From contig OX637625.1 of assembly GCA_951802195.1 (NCBI GenBank), positions 1,240,001 to 1,304,000 of the forward strand: DNA of 64,000 nucleotides, in the 5' to 3' direction. The notes beneath the pieces are model-generated. The model had not been told where the DNA came from and made no database searches. It saw nothing but the letters and a program-made list of their open reading frames with translations. Below are positions 3,377-47,093 of the stretch, piece by piece. The position numbers and the translations under genes were made by a program. The stretch comes from Tausonia pullulans (taxonomy: Eukaryota; Basidiomycota; Tremellomycetes; Cystofilobasidiales; Mrakiaceae). The number at the start of each line of letters is the position of its first letter. Position 1 is the first letter of the stretch.

Positions 3377-6315
3377 ATGAACTTCCCCCCTCCACCGTTC
3401 CTTCCGCCCCTCCCTCCCGGCTGGACCGAACACCGAGGTGAGTCGCGCCATCGTTCACGCGGGTCCTGGGTGGCGGTGACGAGTGGGTGCACCCCGCGCC
3501 CACATCACCTGTCTCCGCCGCGTCGTCGCGCTCTTTCGACTCGCTTGACTCCCTACGGACAACAGCCCAGCCGACCGACCGCTTCTTCCCTCGCTGACTC
3601 CTTTGTTCTCACCTTCACCAGCCGCTGGAGGGGTCCTCTACTGGCACAACGCCGCCACGGGCGCCTCAACCTACACCCGCCCCGCGCCCGTCGTCCCGCC
3701 TCCCGGGTTCGTCTCCCTTCCTCCTCCTGCTCCGGAAAAGAAGAAGAAGAAGGAGAAGCCCAAAGACAAGACACCGATCCCTGGGACGACGTGGATTCGC
3801 GTCAAGACGACGGAAGGAAATGTATTCTACATGGACAAGGAGTCGAAGAAAAGCGAGTGGACGATACCGGAGGCGATCAAGGTCGGTCGTCCTTCCATCA
3901 AGTCTCATTCATAGACCCAAGAGACGGTAGCTGAAATATGTGACACAAGACCGAGGTTGAATCCCTCGAAGCCGCCGAACGCGCCGCCCAAGCTGAGCAG
4001 GAGGAGGCCGAACGCGTCGCGCTCGCCCAGCAGAAGGCCGAGGAGGAGGCTTCCGCCCGCGTCGAGGTCGAGCGACTTCGTGCGGAGCTCTCCGCTGCCT
4101 CTGCTGCGTCGTCAAAGAAGCGGAGGTCTGTGTCACCCCAAGCGGGAGATCAGGCTTCTAAGAAGGCGCGACACGAGGACGAGGAGGAGGCCCCTTCGAA
4201 AGACGAGGAGCCCGAGGACGAGCTCCCCGAACAGGCTGGTCCCGATGGGGAGGACGATGAGGAGGCCTGGCAGCGAGCCGTCGCTGCGGAGATGGCGATC
4301 GAGTACGTCGACCCGAAGGAACGACCTCGGCTCGAGAAGGAGCAGAAGGAGCGGGAGAAGCAGGAGGAGCAGGAGCGAGTCGCTAAGGAGGAGGAGGAGG
4401 CCAAGCGGAAGCTGTTCAACCTTGCCCCCGCTGGGTACGCTCTGCCGCCGGGTGGAAAGGTGGAGATGACCGTCGAGGAGGGTCGGGCGCTTTTCAAGGT
4501 GAGAAAGAGAGGGGCATGGCGAGAGTTATGCTCGACTGACGAGCGATCCCCTCTAGAGCCTACTCTTCGAGAAGAACATCTCCCCCGTTGCCCCCTGGGA
4601 GATGTCGCTCCCTCTGTTCATCAACGATCCACGTTACATCCTTCTCTCTTCCATCAAGGACCGGCGCGAGGTCTTCGACGAGTACTGTCGCGAAAAGTCG
4701 CGCGAGCTCCGGCTTGCGAAGGCCGCCGCCGCTGCGTCCAAGGCGCCCGTCGACCCGGAGCGAGAGTACCGAGACTTGCTGAGGATCGAGGTGACGAGCA
4801 CGAGGACGAGGTGGGAAGACTTCAAGCGGACGTGGAAGAAGGACAGGCGGTTCTTTGGTTGGGGAAGGGACGATCGCGAGAGGGAGAAGGCGTTCAAGAC
4901 GCACCTCAAGGACCTCGGCGAAAGTTAGTCCCTGCGTGTGTAAGCGCCCCTCTTTTTGCGTATTGTTGTCTGACCACGCACTCCAACGAAACGCAGGGAA
5001 ACGCGCCGATGCGAAACGCGCCGAGACTGACTTCCTCCAGCTGCTCTCTGAGTCAACCAAAATCAAGCCGGATTCTGTCTGGAAGGAGGTGCGACCTTCC
5101 CTGTTCTCCCCTTGCTATCTCCGTTTTGACATGGCATTCTCCAGGTCAAGCGCAACTTTGAGCGCGACCCGCGCTACGACGCCGTTGGCTCGTCCTCCCT
5201 CCGCGAAGAACTCTTCCTCACCCAGCTTCGTCGTCTTGCCAGCGCCACGTCCTCCTCCGCGAACGCAGAAGCAGATGCGGCCCCCTCTGCGGAAGATGGA
5301 GCCGCCCACAAGACGCGGGAGAAGAAAGAGCGAGCTGAGGCAGCCCTCCGGGAGAGACAGGGCCAGGTCCAGGCTCAGCAGGGGCGGGTCCAGTCCGAGA
5401 TGGCTAGGAGTCGTGGGCTCGTCGGAAGAGAGGAGGCCGAGCGGGAGTTTGGGACGCTGCTGGTCGATCAGGTCCGCGAACACGACGTGAGTCTCCTCTG
5501 AGCGGTTGCTTTCGCAGGCAGGCCCACGCTGATCCCATCGGCCCACAGGCGAGCTGGTCGGACTACCTCCCGCGACTCGAGAAGGACCCTCGGTTCAACT
5601 CACCCTCGCTCAACCCATCCGACAAGCATCGCCTCTTCTCGGCCCACCTCTCCCGTCTCCAGCAGAAGCGGCTCGCGGCTCTGCACGATGCCTTCTCGCA
5701 GCATGCCCCCGCCCTCCAGACGTCGTTCGAGGAGATCCACTCGTCGATCGTTGGCCTTCCGGCGGTCGTCCACATCCGCCTGCCTCTCCCGGAGCTCGAG
5801 GATGAGTTTGCCCGCTGGCAGCGGAGTCGGAACGAGCGGGCGAGGGTGGAGTTCGCCGAGATGCTCGGGGAGAACTCGTTCGTCAAGTTCTGGGGCGGGC
5901 TCCAGAAGAAGCGGACCGAGACGGAGGAGGAGAGGAGGAAGCGCAAGGGTGGGGGTGTTGGGGGCAACGAGAGCAGCGATAGCGAAGAGGACGAGGGCGA
6001 GGAGGGGGGAGGCAAGGCTGATCTGGCGGGCATGGCGAAGCAGATTGACCTGGAGCAGATCGAGCGGGTGCTGAGCGTGAGCAGACCTCGTCCCTCGGTC
6101 CCCGTTCGCGCCGCTGACCCGCGCCGCGCCCCCTTCCCAGCAGGACAAGAGGTACATCGTCTGGGACCACATGCCGGACGAGAGGGAGCAGTGGCTCAGG
6201 GTGAGTCTGGTGGTCGTGCGAGGGAGCCCCGCCTCCGCCCTGCTGACAGCCTGGCCGCCGCCAGGACTACCTTGCGACCCTCGAGGCGCCCAAGGCCTCG
6301 GTGCATGTGGGCTAG
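3377..6315 (+). CDS. WW/FF-domain pre-mRNA splicing or transcription factor (TCERG1/Dre4-like)
   Basis: Likely couples RNA polymerase II transcription to splicing in the nucleus, by family. Nine exons: 3377-3437, 3622-3881, 3950-4498, 4557-4923, 4997-5088, 5145-5486, 5549-6076, 6141-6200, 6265-6315; 770 codons. The N-terminus is proline-rich. Two WW domains follow: PPGWTEHRAAGGVLYWHN with YTRP, and TTWIRVKTTEGNVFYMDKES with SEWTIP. Next come a long acidic Glu/Lys coiled coil and then FF-type repeats (WEMSLPLFINDPRYILLSS, FDEYCREKSRELR, WEDFKRTWKKDRRF, WSDYLPRLEKDPRF). The C-terminus has KRYIVWDHMPDEREQWLRDYL. This WW-WW-FF order matches TCERG1/CA150 and fission-yeast Dre4 better than Prp40. 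The acceptor at 6140 or 6143 (CAGCAG) changes one Gln. The true start could lie upstream if the 3240 ATG is used. Confidence 0.85.
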
Positions 6316-29602: not shown

Positions 29603-29674
29603 TTCCCTTGCCGGGAGTCGAACCCGGGCCTTGACGGTGAGAGCGTCATATCATAGCCGTTAGACAACAAAGGA
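29603..29674 (-). tRNA. tRNA-Glu(CTC)
   Basis: Seventy-two nt; acceptor TCCTTTG pairs with CAAGGGA, discriminator A. The anticodon loop CTCTCAC is closed by TGACG/CGTCA, giving anticodon CTC. The T arm is CCGGG-TTCGACT-CCCGG. An A4 run just outside (T4 on the transcript) serves as terminator. It is identical to the copy at 47558-47629. Confidence 0.95.
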
Positions 29675-30565: not shown

Positions 30566-30955
30566 GACAGTTCCTTTTTGCAGCCTCAAGGAGGAAAGCC
30601 GGTGGTAGTAAGAGGGTGTCGGTGGCAGTGAAGGTGCAGAGGTGGTGATGGTAGGCGTGCGGCGGGGGAAACGGCGTCGGGGGGAATCGACGTTATTATC
30701 ACCACGACGACCGGGCGACGAGTTGTGACGGCGTTTGACGAGCGGCGCCTTCCCTTCTGCGGCTCTGGATCTTCTGATCTGCGGTCAATTGGGGATAGAC
30801 CCTCGTCCGAGGGATGGAGCCCAGAGAGATGGCAGGGAATGCGAGTCCTGTCCCAGAGGAGAGATTGAAGGAGCGAAAAGGTGAGCGCGCTCTCGCTCGA
30901 GCGCCGCCGACATGGGCAAAAGTATTGGCTCCTCGGCGAAGAGGAGAGATTTTCT

Positions 30956-31028
30956 TGGAGACTATAAGAGTTGAACTCATGACCTTACACATGCTAAGCG
31001 TACGCTCTACCAACTGAGCTAAATCCCC
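30956..31028 (-). tRNA. tRNA-Ala(AGC)
   Basis: Seventy-three nt; acceptor GGGGATT, D arm GCTC-AGTTGGTA-GAGC, anticodon loop TTAGCAT with anticodon AGC. Identical in sequence to the gene at 43970-44042. A retroelement 3' end lies in its 5' flank at about 125 bp. Confidence 0.93.
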
Positions 31029-31152
31029 AAGTGGTTTGCTTGATGGAGCAGGCCCTCCCATTGGATATTGACTGATTTTTCATCAACGCCCTGTTTTTCG
31101 CCATCAGGGTGGTTCGACCATCACCCTTCCCTCTGCGCCCGACGTTCTCACG

Positions 31153-31240
31153 CTCGTTCGTGTTCGCTCTCCCTCTCCCTAGCTACGACTCCATATCGCT
31201 CTTAGGGGTACCTCGTCCTCTACATATCACTCATGACTGA
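31153..31240 (+). mobile_element. 3' end of a tRNA-associated LINE-like retroelement, copy 1 (5'-truncated)
   Basis: About 85 bp match the 3' end of the element at 45354-47093 and the copy at 43790-43900. Shared landmarks, in order, are TTCGCTCTCCCTCT, CTAGCTACGA, TACCTCG and ATGACT. It lies upstream of tRNA-Ala(AGC) on the opposite strand. Only a short A-rich end remains. Confidence 0.65.
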
Positions 31241-31838
31241 ATTGAAATGGTCAATTTGGCGGTCTTTGCCCCCAGCCGCTCTGCCACGCACGCACACGAG
31301 CTTGAGGTTGTGGAACGACGGAGGCCCCGACCCATTAGCAGCTGCTCATGCCGGAGGCATCGCGCGCGCCCACTGGTGGCAATCCTCCCTCTCCATTTCC
31401 TTCACCATGGACCGGCTTAACGTTAACACACGGGCGAGTCCCCGTGACAAGGTTCTTCCTCCAGTGGGTGGTTAAATGGGCGGGGCGCTGCTCAGACTCG
31501 CTCCGCCCTTTGTCGGTCTCGGCTCGGAGGCGTCCGTCCCTGCCAGGTTCGGAGGAGGTGGGGAGGAGGAGGACTGAGGGAGCTCCTCCCTCCCAGTTTC
31601 TTATCTCGACAGCGATATCGACTGTTGCGGCCATCATCGGCTTCAAGACACGAGGACTTTTTGAAGTGGCATTAAGATTATCTGAGGTGGTGCTCCGCCG
31701 TTGTGAGGAGCTCGCTACCCAGCTTTGTCTCCAACCGTGGCACTGCTTCATTCCTTACCCACCCACGACACATTCATAAGCCAGCGTAGACACCTACTCA
31801 ACCCAATCTTGTACTCCCAAGTTCATCCAAACCACACA
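31241..31838. other. Intergenic region before the dioxygenase gene
   Basis: About 600 bp; no gene recognised. The last 100 bp form a promoter-like stretch before the ATG at 31839. Confidence 0.4.
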
Positions 31839-33334
31839 ATGCCGCCTGCTAGTCTCTTCAACCCCCCTTCACCCACTGTCCAGGGCAAGCCCCATGTCCC
31901 TGCCTGGATTCCCCCTCCCGTCACTAAGGAGACGCACAACTTTGCCGAACTCAAGTCTATCGATTTGAGTAAGATGGACTCGGATGACCCCGCGGTTGTC
32001 GAAGAGCTTGTCGAGGAGATCAAGATCGCTATCCGCGATGACGGCTTCATCTTCCTCGAGAACTATGGCATTTCCTACGAACAGGTGAGTACCTCCAGTC
32101 AACTCCAGTCAACCTCATACCTCTCGCTGGCCCAGCCACCCACATACATTTGCTAAGTTTTCACCTTGGCACTGTCTCAGCTCAACCGTCAGTTCTCGCT
32201 CGCGCAATACCTTTACAACAACATCAGCGACGAGGACAAGGCCCGCCTCTTGTTCGACCCCGAGACCGGTCGCTGGTCTGGCTACAAGCACCCTTACGGT
32301 TTCAAGCGCTTCCGTGGCGCTCCCGATGGAATTGAGCAATTCAACTGGTACCCCCGCGAGTGGAAGGACCCTAGTTTCATCCCCTCTTGCATTCACCCAT
32401 TCATGGACGAGATTGAGGCGTTCTGCAACGTGAGTCCGAGTCTAGGAAATTGCCTTTGATAATGTGCTCATCGTCGTGTGCTGTCCAGTACCTCACCAAA
32501 TCTGTCAACCGTCGCTTGCTGGCCCTGTTCTCGCGTGTCCTCGAGCTTCCAGACGACTACCTCTGGGACAAGGTACAATCCCACGGCACCCCCACCGGCG
32601 AGGGCTACTTCCGCCACGCCCTATTTCGTCCCGTCGAGAAAAAAACCCAGGAATCGTCCAAGGGTCTCCGTATGCACGGCCACACCGACTTCGGCCTCAC
32701 CACTCTGCTCTTCTCTGTGCCCATCTCGTGCCTGCAGATCTGGGGCCACGATGAGGAATGGCACTACGTCCCTTACAAGCCTGGAGCGCTCGTCGTCAAT
32801 ATTGGAGAGACCCTTGAGATTGTGTCTGGAGGACACTTCAAGGCAACCCGTCACCGCGTTTTCAAACCCCCTGTGGACCAGCTTCACGAGGAGCGTCTGT
32901 CTCTCGTTCTCTTCAACTCGTCTGTTGGTGAACTCCGCATGACCCCGGCTGCCGGTAAGTGGACACTTTTTCTATCTCACGTTTCGAAATGAACTGCGGG
33001 ATTGACTTTGCAGCGATACTCTTAGAGTCGCCTCTGATTCAGCGCGAGGGTTGTATCGAGGAGCAGGGTGTTTACAAAGAGTTTAAGGCGATCATCGATC
33101 AGGGAGTGCCAGTGAGTATGACTCTCAAGAACCCACCGTATCGAGCCATATCTGACGCGAGATCCTTGTTCGTAGATCCCCACCAACCAGCAATGGCGCG
33201 AGATCCAGATCGCTGAGGCGACCGACCCGACCGACACCGAGCGCAACAAGCTCGGCGCCGACCAGGTTCTGATTAACGGCAAGCTCATGCAGCACCGCGA
33301 ATACCTGGGTGTCAAGGTGTTGTTGCCCGTTTGA
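31839..33334 (+). CDS. 2-oxoglutarate/Fe(II)-dependent dioxygenase (isopenicillin-N-synthase-like)
   Basis: Oxidises an unknown small substrate using 2-oxoglutarate and Fe(II), probably in the cytosol. Five exons: 31839-32084, 32181-32429, 32489-32954, 33014-33111, 33176-33334; 405 aa. The N-terminal DIOX_N region is IDLSKMDSDDP...IRDDGFIFLENYGIS. The 2OG-Fe(II) core has HGHTDFG, giving iron ligands H230 and D232, then ATRHRVF with distal H287. ERLSLVLF supplies the Arg301-x-Ser303 that binds 2-oxoglutarate. All catalytic residues are present. The C-terminal extension to about residue 400 is normal for fungal members. Neighbours are an allantoate-permease-type transporter and an aldolase, so it may act in the same catabolic pathway; this is inference. 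Confidence 0.92.
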
Positions 33335-33939
33335 ACGGGCGAGCTGGAGTTCTCCAGGCAGGTGTTGCTTTCAGGATCTGTCTAATAGTTTTGAATAGGT
33401 CGCTTCAGCGTTGTGTATTGGACCGCCCAGGTCAAAGATGCAGTGAACCCCCACACCCCTTCTCTTCCCTTCCCATTTTCTTTCCCTTTCGAGTCGTAGA
33501 CAGTCCGTCATCGTTTATTGATGACAACTGTCGCCATTGAGAAGTCTTCGCAGGACTTAGGGTCGTGCTGCTCGGCGGCCCGCCACCGCTCCAGCGGCTC
33601 ATTTATACCCAGGTCGTCACAGAAGACTGACCAGCGCGGAACGTCATTTCAGTACTGGCTTGTACGGATGATAGGGGAAGCGAGGCGAACCCTTGTTTGT
33701 ACCGCATCACCAGCACCCGCTGGAGCTCCTGAGTCGAGACATGGTCAATGTGAAACTCGGGGGATATCTTGAAAGGCTTGCTCATGACTGGTTGAATGAA
33801 AGCTGGTGATAGAGATTGATGGCTGAGGTTCATAGAGAATCTATCAGTACGGATGAAGCAATCCCCCATCTTGGCCCGACGCAGGCGATGTGGATTCTGA
33901 AATTGATTAGGACGCCGAGGGGCCCAAGACCGCAGAGCA

Positions 33940-34340
33940 AGTTAACAACCCCAGCAACCGTATTGACTCGGCAAATCGGCGCAGCGTTGTTCGTGTTGAC
34001 CACGAGACCACTCCGGCACAAAACTCACATCAAGGTCAGGAAGGGAGGCACAGGATTGATTTCTCGTCTGCCTTACACCGTTTCTTGGGAGAAGCCTGAC
34101 AGTACTGGTGCACAAGTTAAATGATGGCTTGCGGCGGGCGCCATCGAGCCCTCTAACTCTCCCTATGGCTTGCTCCCCAGTCATTGTCGTGCGCAAGATG
34201 TGGAAGTTCCGTGGGTGTATTGAATACTGTCGATTGAAAGCAGCCACTGTGAATGATCCGTACCCCTCCCTTGTCAAGCAGACATCTTTCACTTTCCCAC
34301 AGGCGCTCAATGCGTATACGAAGCATCTTTCATAATAAAT
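33940..34340 (+). mobile_element. Ty3/Gypsy LTR retrotransposon fossil (reverse transcriptase fragment)
   Basis: A short plus-strand stretch around 34140-34330 retains recognisable reverse transcriptase sequence of the Ty3/Gypsy type (SPVIVVRK..., YCRLKAATVNDPYPS). Flanking sequence to about 33940 may belong to the same pol fragment. No LTRs, integrase or Gag were seen. It is a broken, old remnant. Confidence 0.6.
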
Positions 34341-34383
34341 AGTAGTCCCATACAAACGTTAAGTTGTACAATTCCCGTCGCCC

Positions 34384-36295
34384 TCAATACATCTCGTAGC
34401 GCCATCCCAAGTCCACCATCTCCTGTGTGACACCGCGGCGGATGACACGGGCAATCTGATCGGGGTCGCCAGAGTCGAGTTTCTTGTTCTCGTTGAGGAT
34501 GTGCCAACGGTAGACCGTGAGCGTGGCGGCGAAGAGGGCGGCGCAAGCAAGAACTATGTAAAAGTACTATGATTAGCATTCAGATACGTATGCCCAAGAG
34601 CACACCCTTTTACTCACGGGTTCCAAACGCCGTGAAATAGTGCGGGGGGTGGATGTAGACGTAGCTCATCCAGATATTGGAGGTACCACCAATAGCGTTG
34701 ACGAGGGCCGAGGCGGCAGCACGCTTGGAGGTGGGCCGGGCAAGGTGCAGATTGATGGTCTTGTAAAGCAGGATCTGGGGGCCGACCGAGCTGAAAGGCA
34801 GCATCATCATGGCAAAGTAGCGCGCGCCGACGCTAGTGGTAGTCATGGGGATGATGTACATGATGGAGGCGGTGCCGATGAGCACGAGGATGACGGGATA
34901 GATGGTGTTCTTGCGCTGTTTCCGCGGGCAGCGAATCAGCGGAAGCACCTTCTAGGACATCCGGAAGATACTCACGTCTGAGTACCAACTGATGAGGTAG
35001 TACATGAACGCCGCAAAGATGTACGGGGGCGCAGTAAGCACCAAGGTGAGGGTTCGGTTGTAGCCAAGCGATTCGACGATGCTAGGGAAGAAGTTGGCGA
35101 TTGATCCCTGACACTGCGACATCATGTTCATGAAGATGAGCATGTAAAGCTTGGGGTCGGTGAAGGCGTGGGCGAAAGCGCGCAGGGTGGAGACGTCCTC
35201 GGTTCCCTCGGCGGCACCGGACTCGGATTCGATACGCCAGACGGCGAGGTCGCGCTGGATTGGAGTGAGGATCTTGGCATTGTGTGGGTACTCGGGCATG
35301 AAGAAGGCACTGATGGAGCCGATCCCGACGGTGGCGGAGCCCTCACTGTAGAGAGTGCTGGATTAGATACAGTGACTCATGCTGGAATGATTGCATACGG
35401 CCACTCACATGATGAACAACCACTGCCAGCCTTTGAGCCCGTGCAGTCCGTCGAGTTTGAGGACGGCTGCAGCGAAGAGGCCGCCGAAGGCATTACCAAA
35501 CTGCTGGGCAATGTAAAGCCCAGCAAGGCGCTTTCCGAGTTCGGCCTTGGTATACCAGGCAGACAAGTAGTAGACGGCTCCGGGGAAAAAGACGGCCTCG
35601 ACAACACCGAGGCAGGCACGAATGGCAACCAACTGGCTGTAGTTCTTCACGGCGGCGTTGGCGGCAGAGATACAGCCCCAGACAACGACGGCGCAACAAA
35701 TGTCTGGCAGGCACATGGGGAAAGTTAGCGGGTAAGTTGCAGATCGTCAGACTGAGGGGCCTGGCCTACTCACACATTCCGGGGCGGGGGATCTTGGTAA
35801 TGATCAAGTTGGACGGGATCTGGAAGGGCAGGTACCCAACTGGACATAGCAGTAGGCCATTAGCTTTCTAGTCTTGCGTCTGTACCGATACGTCTGTGTC
35901 GACCAAACACATTGACTGACCGAAAAGAATGGACACGGCAGTGGCGAACTGCTGAGTGGTAAGGTTCAGGTCGGTCATGATGCCCTGAACCTTGGCCGCG
36001 CTCAAGTTTTGACGGTCGATGTAATTGAGGATGTAGAGGATTCCAATGACAGGTCTGAAGCCCCGAACTTTCAGTTCTTTGCCTTACGCTGGCGAGATCA
36101 AGTGCACAGTACTCACAAGATGATCGCATCCATCTTGCGGACCAGCGTCCTCGTCATCTTGTCGATCTCTTCTTGGCTGAGATTGCACAAGCTCTCAGGC
36201 TCACGACTCTCTGGGACGGCGGCGACGCTGACATCGAGGATCGGGCCCTTGTCTTCCACGTCCGTGGCAGACTCGTTCTTGACCTCCGAGCTCAT
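34384..36295 (-). CDS. MFS transporter, allantoate permease (Dal5/ACS) family
   Basis: Twelve-helix plasma-membrane importer of organic anions, vitamins or ureides by family. The first exon is 36117-36295; several short introns follow (near 36000-36060, 35720-35840, 35350-35410, 34930-34975, 34560-34615). Early sequence VIGILYILNYIDRQNLSAAKVQGI is the family motif after helix 1. Later blocks are LVAIRACLGVVEAVFFPGAVYYLSAWY, RLAGLYIAQQFGNAFGGLFAA, GWQWLFIIEGSATVGIG and ALVNAIGGTSNIW. The C-terminus is NKKLDSGDPDQIARVIRRG...GWRYEMY, hydrophilic and cytosolic. The stop is at 34384-34386. It diverges from the HpcH/HpaI aldolase across a GATA-rich promoter. The exact substrate cannot be read from sequence. 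Confidence 0.92.
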
Positions 36296-36856
36296 AGTAG
36301 TGTAGATGAATTGAGGGTGAGGCTGGTTATTGCAGGTGTTGAGCACAGTTGTGGTGTTTGGAATTGAACCTCAACTGCTGAGATGCGTTCTGGGCTTTAT
36401 ATGTTTGCTCCTTTGTCCAATGGCGACGCTATCATCTCGTGACTTGATGGTGATAACATGGACATTCAGGTCTGTGCCCAGTGAACAGTGGTCTCGCCAG
36501 CTCTCCAGAGGAGCTCCTCCTCCGGCCTTCCGGTCCGATAACGGCGCGACGCGGCGGAACGCGGTGACTCCGGGTTTAACTCTGAAGTGCGATAACTCCA
36601 TCCCTACTCTGCGATCGAAGCCTGCTCCTCCCTGAGTGCAAATCCTGGATCTGTTCTGAGTCCTGGTGAGGGAGGAGCAGGTGTAAAGGCAAGGCTTGTC
36701 GCCACGAGGCTGCCGAGAATGGATATCTCAACATGATGGAGTAGAGCACAATTCTCAACATCGTTCTTAAAAGAGCTATACTCACGACGATCTTGACGTC
36801 CTTGCTCCAACCTATCACACACACCCCACAACTTGCACGCCTCGCCACACGCCAGC
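36296..36856. promoter_or_regulatory. Bidirectional promoter with three GATAAC motifs
   Basis: 561 bp between the transporter and aldolase start codons. GATAAC occurs at 36452, 36537 and 36591, all on the plus strand within 140 bp. Such clusters are typical targets of GATA factors that relieve nitrogen repression. CGG/CCG-containing stretches at 36521-36572 could bind a zinc-cluster regulator. Both inferences need binding or expression data. Confidence 0.45.
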
Positions 36857-37850
36857 ATGTCCTTCCCTACCGCCCACACCACGACCATCTCCAACCCTCG
36901 TCTCAAGGTTCTCAACAAGCTCAAAGCGGGAGAGTTTCCCTTGATGACCTTTATGGCCATCCCCTCGGTCCGCCACGCCCAGATCGTCGCCCTGACCGGA
37001 CTCGATGTGAGTGAAGCGCTTGGGGGTAACATATGTCGCATTTGAGCTGAACCTCTACACCATACAGGGAATCATCATTGACTGTGAACATGGTCATATT
37101 GGCGACGACTCGATGCACAACTCCGTCGCTGCCATTTCTGCCCTCGGCGTCAGCCCCATCATCCGTATCCGCGGAACTGCTCCAGATATCATAAAGCGCG
37201 CCCTAGACACCGGTGCACAGTGAGTACAGCCCGTGTGTAGGGCTCGGAAACTTGAACTAACGTGTCGTTTCTTCCCAGCGGCATCATGATCCCCCAGATC
37301 AACACCGCCGAAGAGGCCGAGCAGGTCGTACGGTACTCGAAATTCCCCCCTCAAGGTCTGCGTGGTCAGGGTTCCGCGTTCCCCGCCATCGGTCACGGCC
37401 TCACGACTCCCGAATACATGCTTTCCGGAAACCAAACTATCCTCACCATGGTCCAGATTGAGACTGTTGCCGGTCTGGAGAACGTTGAGGCAATCTGCGC
37501 TGTGCCTGGTGTAGGTGAGTAAAGTCCGCTCGAACTTCCTTGGATCTCAGCCCAGTGTGCTCATTCCTCAGCGCTACTCATTAGATCTCGTATTCATCGG
37601 CCCCAACGACCTCGCACAATCGCTACTTGGCTATGTTCCTGCTCGCGGCGATGAGCCTGAGTTTGTGGCCGCAATCGACAAGATTGCAGCAGCAGCTAAG
37701 AAGCATGGCAAGTGGTCCGGCCGGCTGGTCAACAACGGAGGCCTGGCCAAGGACGCAAAAGCGACATTCGACACGGTCGCTATCACGGGTGACACCAAGG
37801 CGATTCAAAACTGGTACATTGCCGAGCTCGACGTGGCCCGCTCAACATGA
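36857..37850 (+). CDS. HpcH/HpaI-type aldolase
   Basis: Class II metal-dependent retro-aldol enzyme that usually releases pyruvate or a related 2-oxo acid from hydroxy-oxo-diacids. Four exons: 36857-37006, 37068-37219, 37279-37514, 37585-37850; 267 aa, the usual length. Motifs: FMAIPSVRHAQIVALTGLDGIIIDCEHG (family D-x-E-H block), PIIRIRG, GAHGIMIPQINTAEEAE, MVQIETVAGLENVEAI with the metal-binding Glu, and VDLVFIGPNDLAQSLG with the metal-binding Asp. All key residues appear intact. It shares a promoter with the transporter, which suggests it acts on the imported compound or its oxidation product. Confidence 0.93.
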
Positions 37851-38079
37851 TGATATATAGCGGATATTATAGCATGGATTATAGCATGAACGTGGCGATA
37901 TAAATTCATGACCAATACTGACCAAACTACATGATGTCCGACTAAAGCGAGGCAACCAGAGCTTCTCCGTCCGAAGCATACTGTTCCAAAGACATCCACT
38001 GATGGAGAGTCGTGGAACAGGAGACCACAACACACCTAAAAGAGTTCCTTGAGCGGCCTTAAAATTGGGAAATAGTGAG

Positions 38080-38710
38080 AAATGGTCAGGTCCAGCTCAT
38101 TGTCAGATGCTGAAAGGATGAGAGGGGAATGAGCGAGAGGAAACGTGACGGACCTCTGCACTGGCGTCGGGAGACTTCGGATGTACTCGACGAGCTGAAC
38201 ATGACTTGTTGGGAGACGATGGTTGAACCTGGTGGTAGTCATCCGTTCGATCTCAGGAGTAATTGTCCCTGTGAGTGGAGAATAGAGGACAGCATGAGGA
38301 GCGTAGGCGAGAAGCGTGATCGACGGCAAGGAGAAACGATAGAAGCGGGAGAGAGACGCAAAATAATAATGGATCAAGAGACAGAAGGACGTACTCTTCC
38401 AAGGTCAAGAAGCCATGATCCAGTAGCAAGCTGATAGTCGGTCGATCCCTCTCGTCCCTTCCGTGACAAGCTCTCACGACATCTGTAGCTAACAGATCAA
38501 CCATACTCTCCAGCTCCCGCTCTTCCACTTTTCTCGGAGTTTCTCCCGGTTTAGGAGGAGGTAAACGGGGCGTCAAAATAAGTAGATTGTCGACTTGGTG
38601 GGAAGGGAAGCAGATATCTTTCAGTTTGGCGAGGTGGGTGGTGATACGGGAGAAAGGGAAGTGACCGTAGATCATTCGGTACATGGTACAGCGAAAGACT
38701 TGCAAGACAT
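38080..38710 (-). pseudogene. Mps1/TTK-like kinase C-lobe fragment, probably decayed
   Basis: On the minus strand, about 38380-38705 translates to CTMYRMIYGHFPFSRITTHLAKLKDI, then VVRACHGRDERDRPTISLLLDHGFL. These match the end of Mps1/TTK-type kinase domains (subdomain IX to XI). The expected upstream W-S-L-G of subdomain IX is replaced by unrelated residues. I found no ATP-binding loop, HRD or DFG block in the 1.3 kb upstream. A second open stretch (38040-38290) may be its C-terminus. It is either a dead partial copy or a very diverged gene. Confidence 0.45.
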
Positions 38711-40093
38711 TTTATCAGAGGCTGAAAGAGTCTTATTTGTTTTAGAAGTAGATAGATGATGACCGTTTGAAAGTCGAGCGAAATGAGCTTGGTGATCAAT
38801 CCAAATCAAATTAAGAAGTCCGGACCTCGCCAACAACGACAGTCGCACCTCATTCACAGGATTCGATGGCTAATTAGACCACAAAATGCATTTCCTATAC
38901 CTGTGCGCTTTTCAAGATACATCCTTCAGCTTTCCGGCCGCCCACATGAACATTCGCCAAGCTACCGATCGTTGAAATTAGATATCTACAGCTCCCTCGC
39001 AACTCGCCCAAGCGATTGACTTCTCTCGATCCCCAAAGCAGGGAGATGATTTGTTTGTATAAGCTTCAAGTTGCTGTATGCTTGAAGGTGGTGGGATTAT
39101 CAAAGATCCCCTTTCTGGCTTCGTATGATAGTCATGCAGAACGCAAACATCTTCAACTTGCCTGAGAATTACATCATGAAGTACTGTACGTCTTCTGGCC
39201 CCTCCCAATGACCTCATTAGCTTCTTGGAAGTTCTTCTTGTTGACAATTATCAGTTTGGAAGATGCGCAGCAGATCTCTATCATTCATTGACGTGCAAGT
39301 ATCGTCTGTCGCTGAGGAGACTTCATCGGGCAAGATCATTGGCTACGTATGAGCGAAGATGTCCGGCTTCCCTTCCCTTGGTCTACTCTCCCTCTTAGAT
39401 TCAAGTCGGAAACTGTTATTTTACATTCAAAGGCTGACCAAATTCCATCTTTTCATCTTCAGGGACGAAGACTCAGCTGAACCTCACGGGCACGTCACCT
39501 CAAATTCCGTTTTTCGAGCCCATCGTCGTCTAGGTCTCGCCAATGAACTGATGCGTCAATCTCAGATTGATGCGGCGTTAGTTTATCGAGCCGAGCACTG
39601 CAATCTTCCTGTCAGAAAGACGAACAGAGCAGCTATCAGACTTCACAGGAAGAGTCTATGATACAAAGTTCACGAAGTCGAGGTGGGATACTGTAAGTCC
39701 ATTTCAGTTTTCGTCAAGTTATTGGGTTCTGGAGCAAGTTAATGAATTCGGTAGAGGACGAAGAGAAGCAAAAACCTTGATCCTAGAGTGCAGGCCCCAT
39801 GAAATGCTGAGCTCGCTTGGTCTTCCATTTTACCATTGATACTGACAAGGAAGATGCGCACGGGATGCGACTTGAGTTGACACTTGACGACAGTTGATGA
39901 TCTTTCCTCACGATTATCAAGGGACCATCGATATTCGCTGATCTGCAACAAAATTTAAACAATACTGATGAATAATCCAAGGAACAAACCCCTACTGAGA
40001 CCTTTCCAATCTGAGACTGGGGTACCCTTTTCGATCAGACAGTAAGTCTATGGGTAGTTGAACACTCTACACCAGAACTCCAGAAACACTCGT
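38711..40093. other. AT-richer region, no gene recognised
   Basis: About 1.4 kb with short frames only. Base composition is visibly more AT-rich than the flanking blocks. No motif, tRNA or repeat was identified. Parts may be decayed sequence linked to the kinase fragment. Confidence 0.4.
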
Positions 40094-42021
<1,928 letters not shown>

Positions 42022-42700
42022 GACAGCTGATTCTGGAGGGGTAGCGAGGGAGAAGATGACTCTATTGTCACAGGCTGAAGCGCTAGCTGATGGCGGGTGA
42101 AAAGAGATGGGGAGAGAGTTGGTTGAAAAGGTCCTAGGTGTTGGATACTCAGATCAGCCCCGGGTTTACTCCCGATGGGTGGGGGACTCGGCCTCACAAA
42201 TTAGACGCTGGACCGCTAGAGGCAGATAAGGGAAGACATGACATTTGTCTATGCTCTATATATTGGATCTTGGGGAAGTCAGGAGGAGTTCTACCGCCAG
42301 CGAATGAAAGGCCATGTTCTGAGACAAGGAGAAGCTAGGATAAATAATCAGTAAGAAAGCTTGAATAATGGAAGAGAACCGTAACATTACTCATGCTGAG
42401 GAGTACTCTGAGCCTCTTCCCTATGAGTGAAACTCCAAGGAGGGGAGGAGAGATAAGGGAAAGCCCCAGTTGAAATGGACGATGGTCCGTTGATCGGCCG
42501 CAGTTGAGCGAGAGCCAAGAAATATGAGAGAGATAAGAGGGATGGGATGTTGATGCTCGAGTAGGGAAGAGAATGACATTGATAACTGAAATGTGAGGGA
42601 AACAAGGAGGTAGGAGATGTTTGTTACCGATAAAGCGGGAGGAAGAGGAGCAAAGACGCAACCGAGCAGCTCCTTCAATATCAAATCTTGATCACAACTT
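42022..42700. promoter_or_regulatory. Asparaginase 5' region with several GATAA motifs
   Basis: The plus strand shows GATAAG near 42224, 42448 and 42532, with GATAA also near 42338 and 42629. Spacing is irregular over 400 bp. This density is suggestive of GATA-factor control of the asparaginase gene, but is not proof. The rest, to 43400, holds no supportable gene. Confidence 0.4.
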
Positions 42701-43400
42701 CCCTTTCCTGTCTTGCCATTGACATCAACCCGCCATCTTGAAAGACGTGATCTCCTACGCTGGCCCAAGCTCATGTTTCTTTTTACCGTACCTGTGGTTC
42801 TAAATGGTCTAATAACGATCACAATATCTAAAGTTGGCTGATCGTTCCTGGATCAGCACGAGAACGGGCCGTCCCTGACTTCCTCGATCTCTCGTCCCGC
42901 TTCCAGAATGTCCGCATCGCGCTACACCTCCCGCTGAACTACCACTGCCCTCACCTTAGCCAAGACTGCCACTCTTCCAAGAACTCCCGAATTCCTTCCT
43001 TTTCGCAAAATCTTTCTCCTCCTCTCTAACAGCTCCATCCGCTCTTTCTCCGGCTCTCTCTTCTAAGATTACGACGAAAGCTAAACGCGACATGCTCCCC
43101 TGTATCCCAGATTCCCTTTTATTCAGCATACTATCAACAGACATAATACAAAGAGCAACAGTTCCCGAGCAGGCTGAGGGGCATTGGGATTGAGCGGAGA
43201 TCTCGGACTGGACGAGTTTGAAGAGTTCCGGGCAATAGATTTTCCAAGAAATAGATATTCCGACAGCATCGGCAGGTATTACTGTGTACGCCACTGCATT
43301 GCATGACCTCGCCCAGCGTTGGAGGTGGCAAAAGGGAATGAACAACTCGCAGACAAGTTGTTCAAAGGCTTCGGTGTCACGTCTCGGGATGAAGACCTGA

Positions 43401-43484
43401 TGCCTCGACCCAGATTCGAACTGGGGTCGCAAGATCGCATAGGTCATATGAGACTTGAGTCATAACCAACTAAACTATCGAGGC
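43401..43484 (-). tRNA. tRNA-Met(CAT), elongator type, with 11-nt intron
   Basis: Eighty-four nt; acceptor GCCTCGA with TCGAGGC, discriminator A. The loop contains CTCATA with anticodon CAT, interrupted after position 37 by about 11 nt. T arm CCCAG-TTCGAAT-CTGGG. The G1-C72 pair favours elongator over initiator. Confidence 0.88.
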
Positions 43485-43789
43485 ATGCCGTCGTCCAACA
43501 GACAGAGAGACACCAACAGGTGACATCCACGCGCCTGCCGCCCAACCCATCCCAGCCTCTCTTTCCCGCCACACGTTTGTATTTTCATTTCGCGCTTGTC
43601 TTCGTCACGTCCAAGGGACAGTCCCCTGGCAGTACACTTCGTCTCCGAGTCAACATCGCGTGTTGTCTCCGACTCGAGACCTCTTACCGTCTCCGACCCA
43701 AGATCGCTTGTTGTCTCTGACTCTCCGATACCTCGGACGAGGGCGCTGACGGCGAGAGAGGCATCCGCCGGCTGCTCGCGCGGCGCACC

Positions 43790-43900
43790 TTTTTCTTTGT
43801 ATTTAAGTCATGAGTTACGTATAGAACGAGGTAACCCTATGAGAGATGGTGGTTCATAGCTAGATAGAAGGAGAGCGAGAATGAAAGTAGGGGTGAAAGG
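43790..43900 (-). mobile_element. 3' end of the tRNA-associated LINE-like retroelement, copy 3
   Basis: Read on the minus strand, this segment matches the 3' end of the element ending at 47093: TTTCATTCTCGCTCTCC, CTATCTAGCTA, ATCTCTCATAG, TACCTCG and CATGACTTAA, then an A-rich tail (T-run at 43790-43794 on the plus strand). It lies about 70 bp upstream of tRNA-Ala(AGC), with its tail pointing away. Confidence 0.75.
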
Positions 43901-43969
43901 AAACGGCGCGCCCCTGACGGACGATGAACGACCTCCTCCCACGGCGCAGACTGCACATAAAAACCACTT

Positions 43970-44042
43970 GGGGATTTAGCTCAGTTGGTAGAGCGTACGC
44001 TTAGCATGTGTAAGGTCATGAGTTCAACTCTTATAGTCTCCA
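43970..44042 (+). tRNA. tRNA-Ala(AGC), second copy
   Basis: Seventy-three nt, identical to 30956-31028. Followed by a T7 run at about 44078-44084. A retroelement tail lies in its 5' flank. Confidence 0.95.
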
Positions 44043-44532
44043 AGACAGTGTCACTTCTTCGTTGAGGAACGCAATCCTTTTTTTGCCCCGCTGCCTTCTG
44101 CTCTGCCCTTGGCAGGCCTGCAACGCCTCATCTCCACGGACAGTGCGAGCTTGGCCCGGCCAGCAGCGGGCGTGCAGTCGGCCGGGAAGCAGGGCGCGAC
44201 TGACCCATGCTTGGGGTGCCGACGGGACTTCGAGCAGAGCTCGTGTCGGCTGATCGATCGACCAGCTTGCAGTGGATCGACCAGCTTGGGACTAGCCAGC
44301 TCGCAGTAGACTGGATCCTCGCTTCGGTCTGCGGGCACCCGTGCGGGTCCCGGGTCAAGCAGACTGCTTCCTGCGCAGGGAACGTGGGTGCTGGGCCACG
44401 GTCAGACGGACACATTCTTGATGAGGTGCAGAGAAGCGGGCGGGACGAGGGCGCGCCGATGATAGATATGGACGATCACATCTGCCCACGTCCAGCAAAA
44501 GGTGAGGCGGACTTCAGGCTTGAAGTCTGAGG

Positions 44533-44600
44533 TCACACCAAACACACACCAAACACACACCAAACACACACCAAACACACACCAAACACACACCAAAAAA
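44533..44600 (+). repeat. 11-bp tandem repeat (ACCAAACACAC)n
   Basis: About six tandem units of an 11-bp motif, ending in a run of six A that may serve as the terminator of the adjacent tRNA-Val on the minus strand. Confidence 0.9.
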
Positions 44601-44602
44601 CA

Positions 44603-44674
44603 TATCAGGACCGGGAATTGAACCCGGGTCTAGGCGGTGTTAACACCTTGTACTAACCATTATACGATCCCGAC
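44603..44674 (-). tRNA. tRNA-Val(AAC)
   Basis: Seventy-two nt; acceptor GTCGGGA with TCCTGAT (two G-T pairs). Anticodon loop TTAACAC closed by AGGTG/CGCCT, anticodon AAC. T arm CCGGG-TTCAATT-CCCGG. Confidence 0.9.
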
Positions 44675-44877
44675 GAGTGCTTTTAGTGACAGCCTTGCTT
44701 GCACGCGCACCCAGAACGGCACAACTCTTCTCCGCCCCGCCGTTCATCGACGCCGCCCCTAGTGACCGACCGCCTGCAAGAACCGGAGCCATCCAGACAG
44801 CCTGCAGATCACACTGCATGTCCCGACCAGCCACGAGATCCCTCACAGCATCGAGGATCCCGGCAAAAGGAAACATT

Positions 44878-44977
44878 AGCCCCACGGGGGGGTCGAACCC
44901 CCAACCTTCAGATCACCAGTGACGATGATAGCATCCTGCCTAAGAGTCTGACGCTCTACCGATTGAGCTAGCAGGGC
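44878..44977 (-). tRNA. tRNA-Lys(CTT) with about 27-nt intron
   Basis: One hundred nt; acceptor GCCCTGC with GTGGGGC, D arm GCTC-AATCGGTA-GAGC. Anticodon loop begins CTCTTA (anticodon CTT), then an intron of about 27 nt. Anticodon stem TCAGA/TCTGA. A4 run outside as terminator. Confidence 0.9.
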
Positions 44978-45259
44978 GCGCTCAGACGAAGCAGCCGAAG
45001 CATCCCTCGTTCCATGGACGCTCGTCGCCCAGGCCACCCCAAACCTGACGATGCTGTCGCTCTCCTGTTTTTGAAAACATTTGAAGACAAAACAAAAGCT
45101 CTAGCATCGGCTCTCGCAGCCCCTTCAGCCGTAGTGGACTGGACGGACCCTTCCTGCGTTCGTCCTGCATTTGTCTGACGCCCCGACGCCATTGAGCGGT
45201 CGGTCCTCCAGCTGACGCTGGCCACGCCGGGAGAACCGCAGGACGGAGCAAAAGAGACA

Positions 45260-45353
45260 TGATCGGAATGGGATTCGAACCCATGCCCGTGAAGACTAGC
45301 GAGTTCATAGAAGAACCTTAAGCTAGCGCCTTAGACCGCTCGGCCATCCGACC
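45260..45353 (-). tRNA. tRNA-Leu(AAG) with short intron
   Basis: Ninety-four nt; acceptor GGTCGGA with TCCGATC, discriminator A. Anticodon stem CTAGC/GCTAG; anticodon AAG followed by a short intron. Variable arm TCTTCACGGGC. The retroelement with ORF1 begins within about 130 bp of its 5' end. Confidence 0.9.
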
Positions 45354-47093
45354 GTGTGCTGTATGGATGGCAGGGCGAGCCCGCCAGCAGGTCGTTCGGT
45401 CTTCCTCCTCCTCCCCCGCACCACAACCCACCACAACCACCACCACAACCACCACCAGGTCAACCCAGATCACCCTACCATATGCCTAGTGACTCAGCCC
45501 TCAAGCGACCCCATGGAGCTCTCAGGGCTCCCGAGGATCCCCTAGACCCTCCCTCTCCAGCACAGCGAAAGAGTGGATCGGACGAGGCGGCCATCGCCGT
45601 CCAAGACACGGCGACCAACACGCCCTCTCGCATCGACGAACGTCCCAACACGCCCGTCAACAAACCCACCCTCGGCTCTCCTTCTCATCCGACCAGTCCT
45701 AGTGACCCTAGCTCCCCTGCCCATCCCAGTAACCCTGTCAAGCCTACAGAAGCTACCGAGGCTACCGATAGCACCCACCTTACTACTTCTACTCCCGACC
45801 CTACCACGCCCCACAACCACATCAGCCCCACGGCCCCCCTCTCTTCTCCCTCCCCTCTCCGCCGTACCCCTGCAACCACCTCGACTGGCCGTGTCACTCT
45901 GTCGAGCTCAGCCATTAGCGACCTCAATGCCGCTCCATCCCTCACGTCTGAAGGGGCGCATCTCACACCGTCTCGCTTCACAGGCGAGACTTTCTCTCAA
46001 CAACCTCTCTTCGTCCTCGGCGCCGCGTCGCCCGCGCCGGCGACCTCGGCCAACACCCGCGCCGCCGCGAAGTCGCAGCCGAACGCCATCGGCCGCTCAC
46101 ATGCGAAAACCGCCAGACAGGCTTTTCCTACAACTTCAGCTGCGACGCAACGTGACTCGTCTGGCACCCAGCCCCGGTTCGCCTTCGTCTTCGGAGCCGC
46201 TCAACAACCTCCGCAGGCTACTACCCCAATCGCCCCAGCCTTGGCTGTCAATCGCGGGAACTGTCTAGCCATCTCCGTCCCTCGAGATACCACCCCCCTC
46301 GAGATCGCGATCGCAATTGCCAAGTGCGACGAACGGCTGCCTGGCCTGACCCGTCCTTTCAGAGACCCTAGAGGCAGAATGCTCATCCAAGTCGACCCTC
46401 GAGAAAACGCTCAAGATATCCTGATCCAACTACAGTCCCTCCCGCTGAATGTGAGAGGCGTGAAGCCTCAGATCCACGCGTGCTACAATACCCAAACCCC
46501 AAACAAGCTCCTGCAGGAAGGCCTGCTGGAGAACTTCGAACACGCCGACGGAGTGGAGGAGGAGTTTCGCAAACAAGTAGAAGCCTCCGGAGACAGTGTC
46601 ATCATTTTCCAGCGTCAATTTCATCCCCGCTTACCCGGCGTCCCAACTGACCGGGTCAGAGTCCTGCTCGATATTTCTGGCTCCAAGACGATGCCAAGGG
46701 CAAATGCCTTCTATCAACAGTTACCCGACTGGGTCAACCGCTATGTTATCTTCAAACCTGTCCAGGCTGGCTCTGCTGCGACAAGCTTGATGTAGCTGGT
46801 CACCTTGATATGTCCTTTTAGATCTCCCTTACCCCCTTTCCCCTCTTACCCCTCATACCTTTTACATAATTCACCTTTCATCTTTCATCATTCATATTTC
46901 AACTTTCATCTCCACTCAACGCTCTTTCCCATGGACATATCACCTTTTCTAATGGGCCTATGTCCATACCCGTCTTTGCCTTCCTTCCACCTCTACTTTC
47001 GTTTTCGCTCTCCCTCTATCTAGCTACGATCGCCATCTCTCATAGAACTACCTCGCCACATACGCATAACTTATGACTTAACACAAAAAAAAA
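45354..47093 (+). mobile_element. LINE-like retroelement copy with ORF1-like gene and A-rich tail (non-autonomous)
   Basis: The segment runs from the tRNA-Leu 5' flank to a run of nine A at 47085-47093. It contains one long ORF and about 290 bp of 3' sequence shared with two other copies in the window. No reverse transcriptase or endonuclease ORF follows, so this copy cannot move unaided. The 5' boundary is uncertain (45354-45481). A Tad-like non-LTR family is the best guess. Confidence 0.6.
45482..46795 (+). CDS. Retroelement ORF1-like protein (437 aa, single exon)
   Basis: The only long intronless ORF in the window. The first 230 residues are Pro/Ser/Thr-rich and disordered. Residues about 270-430 form a compact region: NCLAISVPRDTTPLEIAIAI, RPFRDPRGRMLIQVDP, EEEFRKQVEASGD, IIFQRQFHPRL, DRVRVLLDISGSKTMPRANAF, WVNRYVIFKP. 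This layout recalls ORF1 of Tad-type fungal LINEs, where a nucleic-acid-binding domain precedes CCHC zinc knuckles. No CCHC knuckle is present before the stop. The frame is open further upstream to 45356, but the ATG at 45482 is preferred because upstream residues are a simple ACC/CAC repeat. It sits in the retroelement that abuts tRNA-Leu. Confidence 0.6.
   Translation: MPSDSALKRPHGALRAPEDPLDPPSPAQRKSGSDEAAIAVQDTATNTPSRIDERPNTPVNKPTLGSPSHPTSPSDPSSPAHPSNPVKPTEATEATDSTHLTTSTPDPTTPHNHISPTAPLSSPSPLRRTPATTSTGRVTLSSSAISDLNAAPSLTSEGAHLTPSRFTGETFSQQPLFVLGAASPAPATSANTRAAAKSQPNAIGRSHAKTARQAFPTTSAATQRDSSGTQPRFAFVFGAAQQPPQATTPIAPALAVNRGNCLAISVPRDTTPLEIAIAIAKCDERLPGLTRPFRDPRGRMLIQVDPRENAQDILIQLQSLPLNVRGVKPQIHACYNTQTPNKLLQEGLLENFEHADGVEEEFRKQVEASGDSVIIFQRQFHPRLPGVPTDRVRVLLDISGSKTMPRANAFYQQLPDWVNRYVIFKPVQAGSAATSLM

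Follow-up and report, generated by a model that had tools for sequence, protein, structure and literature searches.

An L1-group LINE in the basidiomycete yeast Tausonia pullulans lies upstream of tRNA genes in a single orientation

INTRODUCTION

Why should each of three retroelement 3' ends in one stretch of a fungal genome flank a tRNA gene on its 5' side, occupy the opposite strand, and point its A-rich tail away? The question arises from a 64-kb stretch of Tausonia pullulans DNA (contig 6, OX637625.1, 1240 to 1304 kb), hereafter the window. There the original prediction had recognized such 3' ends beside two tRNA-Ala genes and one tRNA-Leu gene, had compared them to the tRNA-targeted TRE elements of Dictyostelium, and had allowed that three cases among many tRNA genes could be chance. 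We find that the copies belong to a long interspersed nuclear element (LINE) and to a short interspersed nuclear element (SINE) that shares its tail, and that across the genome such copies keep to one side and one strand of tRNA genes. The reading that we favor, at a probability of about 0.86, is that a basidiomycete LINE of the L1 group is steered upstream of tRNA genes by the assembled RNA polymerase III (Pol III) initiation machinery.

RESULTS

Genome-wide abundance and orientation

The genome searched comprises 23.86 Mb in 21 contigs. A 113-bp query returned 48 matches at E values up to 10 (best 40 of 403 candidates scored). It contains an exact tail word at least 302 times, against 0 for the reversed control; the count is 84 for a longer tail pattern and 37 for a word from the LINE 5' end, with controls at 0 for both.

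Orientation was counted in 284 kb of nonredundant DNA that, the window excepted, had been picked by similarity to the tail and not by tRNA genes. This set contains 74 tails, as detected with a tail profile, and 51 tRNA genes, as detected with ARAGORN. Among the 68 tails with E values below 1e-10 (6 of the 74 were above that and were omitted), a tRNA gene is in reach on the 5' side of the element in 44 cases and lies on the opposite strand in all 44; the other 24 have none. The 3' sides in the same DNA, which serve as a control, give 14 tails with a tRNA gene on the opposite strand, 14 with one on the same strand, and 40 with none. The tRNA genes behind the 44 tails number 30 and are of 14 amino-acid types.

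Viewed from the tRNA genes, the 5' flank (out to the next tRNA, or to at most 2.5 kb) holds an element at 35 of 51 genes, with the element's head toward the tRNA in 34. The sole exception, at 304 bp, is the second of the three window copies (copy 2), which belongs to a neighboring tRNA gene; another 5'-flank match, 540 bp away, extends over just 37 bp. The 3' flanks contain 10 elements, all with the tail facing the tRNA, as expected if each element belongs to the tRNA gene beyond it. Such a gene was found in 8 of these 10, and the stretch ended earlier for a tRNA-Gly (contig 11) and a tRNA-Ala (contig 6).

In a second sample, the element played no part in the choice of genes. Its source was a list of 102 tRNA genes, compiled by family and by tRNA-Glu sequence (one of 63 family places, on contig 21, was omitted), of which 89 lay outside the 284 kb; 20 of these were drawn at random, and the first 14 were used. 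The element is present at 12 of the 14, in one orientation in 12 of 12, with alignments beginning 62 to 151 bp from the tRNA. Two of the 12 are weak cases (L055, with 72% identity, and L061, with 20 bp only), and omitting both leaves 10 of 14. The resulting 86% is not a genome-wide rate, because the list leans toward high-scoring genes and tRNA-Glu and because the window itself stands at 3 of 10. By comparison, at least 20 bp of the element occurs in 3.6% of random 220-bp windows (10,000 draws from the 64 kb). Chance is excluded by the fixed orientation in 44 of 44 cases against 14:14 on the 3' side, and by 12 of 14 against the 3.6% background. The targeting of tRNA genes is well established.

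Insertion distance, independence, and target-site marks

An element lies within 250 bp of 45 tRNA genes (33 from the 284-kb set and the 12 sampled), and the nearest copy has the same orientation at all 45. Merging related spacers reduced these to 37 clusters, taken as independent sites; the clustering left out other-strand alignments, and no nearest copy within 250 bp lies on that strand. At 34 of the 37 sites, the junction is 58 to 117 bp upstream of the tRNA (median, 83; interquartile range, 71.5 to 104). The 5' truncation points vary widely among the clusters, which therefore represent separate insertions.

These data bear on the possibility that a few blocks of tRNA gene plus element spread by segmental duplication and were not targeted repeatedly. 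Duplicated tRNA blocks do occur on contig 6, where the region from about 673 to 1310 kb is tRNA rich, holds 28 of the 40 listed tRNA-Glu places, and contains tRNA-Glu/tRNA-Leu blocks that recur as segmental copies. The third window copy (copy 3) and its tRNA-Leu are found again, with a related spacer, at three other places on this contig, and copy 3 with its duplicates is therefore probably one old event. However, 37 clusters with varied 5' truncations remain of the 45 genes after spacer merging. Moreover, at two duplicated tRNA-Glu loci, the common flank extends to 78 bp and gives way to different LINE truncations, at 80 and 81 bp; a third tRNA-Glu, at 29603 in the window, matches these flanks to 78 and 80 bp and has no LINE there. 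Duplication is highly unlikely to account for the pattern: nonhomologous spacers rule it out as the main cause, and it holds for a minority of copies.

No sequence motif was detected at the 37 junctions, where information content reaches 0.23 bits at most, against a shuffled 95% limit of 0.30. Comparison of a filled site at a tRNA-Glu gene (L040) with its empty counterpart (L061) shows an overlap of exactly 8 bp, which constitutes a target duplication, CTCGGACC, positioned 54 to 61 bp upstream of the tRNA. Together, the junction, duplication, and motif data fit a target-primed insertion that is set by position and not by sequence. Separately, L061 itself carries a tail-only insertion of about 20 bp, some 88 to 107 bp upstream of its tRNA-Glu and between two copies of CGGGAAG (by eye); the 7-bp repeat on either side of it suggests that even very short target-primed events leave a trace.

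A sequence-specific endonuclease reading a motif common to tRNA 5' flanks would have precedents, in that sequence-specific LINEs at tRNA genes are known (NeSL-1_TV, LIN15_SM, and LIN25_SM; PMC4640811). Such an enzyme is hardly credible here, given that the 37 junctions have no common motif and that insertions fall at variable upstream positions, not inside the tRNA. Motif-free junctions would equally fit a preference for any nucleosome-poor or promoter region, with tRNA genes merely the most open, but general openness would fix neither the orientation nor the 58- to 117-bp range. Furthermore, protein-coding genes are present in the window (of 10 frames tested, 6 have Pfam matches), yet all three copies found there are at tRNA genes. 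We regard a preference of this kind as very unlikely.

Counts against targeting and apparent exceptions

Several results weigh against steering by the Pol III machinery, or against the generality of the pattern. The element is present at only 3 of the 10 tRNA genes of the window. Exact duplications of at least 6 bp flank only 6 (one of them ambiguous) of the 20 nearest copies with readable tails, and 14 lack one. Of the 30 tRNA genes behind the oriented tails, six are ARAGORN-only calls that the Rfam gathering lists do not contain, and one of the six (contig 11) has no clear identity. As to other Pol III genes, the 1.5 kb to each side of the sole 5S gene found is free of the element (n = 1); U6 places are present in the genome as well.

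Tests based on coordinates only also returned cases of the wrong orientation. Across all listed tRNA genes, 48 tails were opposite, 1 was same-strand (6.2 kb away, on contig 6 near 716 kb), and 67 had none within 8 kb. On contigs 1 and 2 and the start of contig 3, with box-B words added, 40 of 73 were opposite, 3 were same-strand, and 30 had none within 7 kb; this count excludes SINE-type B-box words, with which the numbers become 47, 4, and 22. The 3' side in the same test gave 8 opposite, 9 same, and 56 none. A tRNA-centered count of exact tails was mixed, with 14 opposite and 11 same upstream within 7 kb and 11 and 3, respectively, downstream. It is not used as support because it counts all tails within 7 kb, including those of neighbors, in dense clusters.

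The three same-strand cases of the main box-B count all map to contig 3, at two sites (near 187 kb and near 265 kb). For two of them, the same-strand upstream feature is a genuine tRNA (Rfam, 34.6 bits; Tyr-like by eye); the third has a tRNA-like T-arm (by eye), but the 101 bases read there give no tRNA hit in Rfam. An unlisted tRNA gene at a shorter distance may be present at these places. Hits scattered without regard to tRNA genes, or of mixed orientation, would have spoken against the original prediction; genome-wide, no such pattern emerged, the coordinate-only tests yielding four apparent exceptions in all.

As a side observation, the 5S rRNA gene (L051) is at 1466238 to 1466355 of contig 5 and was the only one above the cutoff, with 47 of 1,476 candidates scored.

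Copies and tRNA genes in the window

The three copies were all found where the original prediction had placed them, each on the 5' side of its tRNA gene (Ala, Ala, and Leu), on the opposite strand, and with its A-rich tail directed away (Table 1). The proposal that all three are the 3' end of one retroelement holds as such for copy 2: copy 1 is a SINE with the LINE tail, and copy 3 is an internally deleted LINE, of which the copy originally recognized at 46981 to 47093 is merely the 3' end.

Table 1. Coordinates, in the window, of the three element copies, their target tRNA genes, and the ORF1 remnant
Feature	Position	Strand	Evidence or comment
tRNA-Ala(AGC), target of copy 1	30955..31029	-	ARAGORN; Rfam RF00005, 59.7 bits
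Copy 1, 5'-truncated SINE, 3' part common to LINE 3' end	31109..31247	+	BLAST, tail profile
Copy 2, 5'-truncated LINE 3' end	43790..43903	-	91% over 116 bp, E 8e-41
tRNA-Ala(AGC), target of copy 2	43969..44043	+	ARAGORN; Rfam
tRNA-Leu(AAG), 14-bp intron, target of copy 3	45260..45353	-	ARAGORN with introns; Rfam, 48.2 bits
Copy 3, internally deleted LINE, 1.66 kb	45435..47093	+	Alignment to LINE
LINE open reading frame 1 (ORF1) remnant in copy 3	45482..46795	+	ATG (by eye) to stop; without ORF2

Copy 1 begins 79 bp from the 5' end of its tRNA-Ala and matches a SINE copy at 80% over 138 bp (BLAST, E 2e-29, at 31109 to 31241); the tail profile locates its tail at 31155 to 31247 (E 2e-19). Copy 2 corresponds to LINE positions 5756 to 5871, lies 65 bp from the 5' end of its tRNA-Ala, and is flanked by an imperfect repeat, GGCGCGCC and GGTGCGCC (by eye). 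Copy 3 begins 81 bp from the 5' end of the tRNA-Leu and aligns in two parts, with LINE positions 1 to 1306 at 45435 to 46763 (82.6% identity) and LINE positions 5719 to 5871 at 46945 to 47093 (85.6%). Its ORF1 remnant lies in a stop-to-stop frame at 45335 to 46795; the ATG is common to ORF1 of another copy, and the N-terminal sequence equals that of ORF1 in the L041 copy. Pieces like copy 3 also occur in loci L026 and L027, with the same joint near LINE position 5719 and the same tRNA-Leu flank, and look like duplicated copies of one event.

The 10 tRNA genes of the window, identified by ARAGORN with introns, were placed identically by Rfam. A tRNA gene at 43399 to 43485 has an uncertain anticodon (a four-base cata, or Ala with an 11-bp intron), and Rfam backs its identification as a tRNA. 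For one gene of the window, the best named hits are from basidiomycete yeasts: Mrakia (68%), Tremella (65%), and Phenoliferia (62%), each covering about 60% of the query.

Structure, affinity, and activity of the LINE

A full copy of the LINE is about 5,871 bp long. ORF1 encodes a protein of about 650 residues, in which two CCHC zinc knuckles were recognized by eye; it has no Pfam match. The ORF2 frames, of 1,231 to 1,233 residues, slightly overlap ORF1 and contain a reverse transcriptase (RT; RVT_1, E 7e-25 in Pfam). An N-terminal APE-type endonuclease is weakly matched (Exo_endo_phos at residues 28 to 243, E 8e-5, 23.0 bits against a cutoff of 24.5); L1 endonuclease chains match ORF2 at E 0.002 to 0.006, and the relatives P0005 and P0006 carry PF03372. 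Among solved chains, the closest is human L1 ORF2 (E 7e-46, query residues 399 to 857), with R2 proteins at E 4e-15 or weaker. A Pfam search of three ORF2 proteins at E values up to 1 gave no match to an RNase H after the RT.

The nearest named relatives of ORF2 are Microbotryum LINEs (e.g., BQ2448_1348), at 32% identity over 96% of the query. In a 28-row RT tree, ORF2 falls with five Microbotryum LINE proteins and three others in a 9-row group with 100/100 support, the RT identity to the Microbotryum LINEs being 36 to 40%. ORF1 has one homologue, 73% identical, on a 6,262-base contig (JGI source), and no relatives were found in viral contigs. Judged by sequence, the LINE is assigned to the L1 group, to which its RT, APE domain, A-rich tail, 5' truncation, and target duplication all point.

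Ten open ORF2 frames are present in the 20 long loci. Five of them, two in one array, are mutually 100.0% identical to within rounding, and activity has therefore been recent; three more distant pairs differ mainly at third codon positions. This youth is relevant to whether insertion was random and selection removed all but the harmless copies beside tRNA genes. In a compact genome, harmful insertions would indeed have to be selected out. However, selection explains neither the single orientation at 45 of 45 tRNA genes nor the narrow distance, and copies identical to within rounding at several loci are too young for strong filtering, which leaves this account extremely improbable.

LINE copies occur head to tail, with tails spaced 5.83 to 5.88 kb apart on contig 11. 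In seven of nine stacks, the tail nearest the tRNA gene is a closer fit to the tail profile than its neighbor is, which is suggestive of an age order. A head-to-tail row is also present at 364 to 401 kb of contig 2, with LINE tails about 6.1 to 6.3 kb apart; beside these tails, a box-B-like word, GGTTCGACCCC, is repeated in runs at 95-bp intervals.

The SINE partner

The SINE is about 0.4 kb long in the copy used and consists of tandem units with GGTTCGACC plus about 90 bp also present in the LINE 3' end. Its site and orientation relative to the tRNA gene are the same as those of the LINE. Because it shares only the LINE tail, the LINE proteins, rather than the 5' part of the element RNA, would carry the targeting information. 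The SINE separates tail recognition from targeting. Transcription of the SINE by Pol III would be our guess; its sequence yielded no identifiable A box. A conserved RNA fold in the shared 3' tail was considered and found unsupported: none of the 13 predicted pairs shows a change in both partners, and the predicted energy is -2.7 kcal/mol.

DISCUSSION

How the LINE reaches tRNA genes

Recruitment by Pol III factors is the most likely explanation for the fixed position and strand of motif-free insertions. The assembled machinery, in all likelihood TFIIIB placed by TFIIIC, would bring the integration complex to the upstream side of the tRNA gene, a step in which the ORF1 protein may have a role. 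The APE endonuclease would nick the DNA some 60 to 120 bp upstream without sequence preference, and target-primed reverse transcription would start from the A-rich tail, on a strand that leaves the 5' end of the element facing the tRNA and the tail pointing outward. Many copies are cut short at the 5' end, and the clear cases carry target duplications of 6 to 8 bp. New copies would land between the tRNA and older copies, building head-to-tail stacks, and the SINE, having the LINE 3' tail, would use the LINE machinery and land at the same place.

Comparison with known elements

TRE5 elements lie 44 to 54 bp upstream of tRNA genes in opposite transcriptional orientation, and the TRE5-A ORF1 protein interacts with TFIIIB, with box B being needed (PMC5911963). 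Like TRE5-A of Dictyostelium discoideum, the LINE described here is an L1-clade element with two ORFs, APE and RT domains, and an upstream, opposite-strand position at tRNA genes (PMC5911963), and it likewise shows 5' deletions, tandem formation, and a nonautonomous form (PMC5391098). The comparison to TRE elements made in the original prediction is thus supported, the geometry being TRE5-like at a larger distance: 58 to 117 bp (34 of 37 sites; median, 83) in a fungal host. Unlike TRE5-A, the fungal ORF1 has CCHC knuckles (by eye), and a SINE shares the fungal LINE tail. The 12 of 14 sampled tRNA genes that are occupied compare with 61% having any TRE in D. discoideum (PMC5006619). The LINE works like TRE5, and, with the distance differing, we do not claim membership in the TRE5 family; its grouping with Microbotryum LINEs suggests an origin separate from that of the Dictyostelium TREs.

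Other non-long-terminal-repeat (non-LTR) elements upstream of tRNA genes include NLTR-B of Polysphondylium pallidum and NLTR-A of Dictyostelium purpureum, but these carry an RNase H domain, for which the fungal LINE has no Pfam match, and NLTR-A lies 2 to 6 bp upstream (PMC5006619). Further non-LTR elements with tRNA-gene specificity exist in other eukaryotes (PMC4640811). Ty1, Ty3, and Tj1 also insert upstream of Pol III genes, but they are LTR elements that use an integrase, and the chemistry is unrelated (PMC5911963). Among fungal non-LTR elements, the Microbotryum L1-like LINEs are the closest named ORF2 relatives, a comparison made by protein sequence alone. Zorro of Candida albicans (Zorro3 being of the L1 superfamily) and Cnl1 of Cryptococcus are likewise fungal, but Zorro1 and Zorro2 are subtelomeric, Zorro3 is at poly(A) sites, and Cnl1 is at telomeres, unlike a LINE of tRNA flanks (PMC7175516). 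We recognized no report of a fungal tRNA-gene-targeting LINE among the open-access matches listed; an earlier report in a subscription journal is possible.

Taken together, we consider it probable that T. pullulans harbors a fungal tRNA-targeting LINE of independent origin in which the polarity of the Pol III complex sets both position and strand, with most host tRNA genes occupied and with a SINE partner that shares only the tail.

Implications

In the literature consulted, LINEs that home by position to tRNA flanks are a feature of social amoebae. A fungal case that obeys the same strand rule, with another distance and another ORF1, allows the reading of Pol III promoters by LINEs to be tested independently. 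The copies that are identical to within rounding suggest that the element is still mobile, and a basidiomycete yeast may be easier to work with than amoebae. For fungi, the finding points to the upstream regions of tRNA genes as a safe harbor for target-primed insertion.

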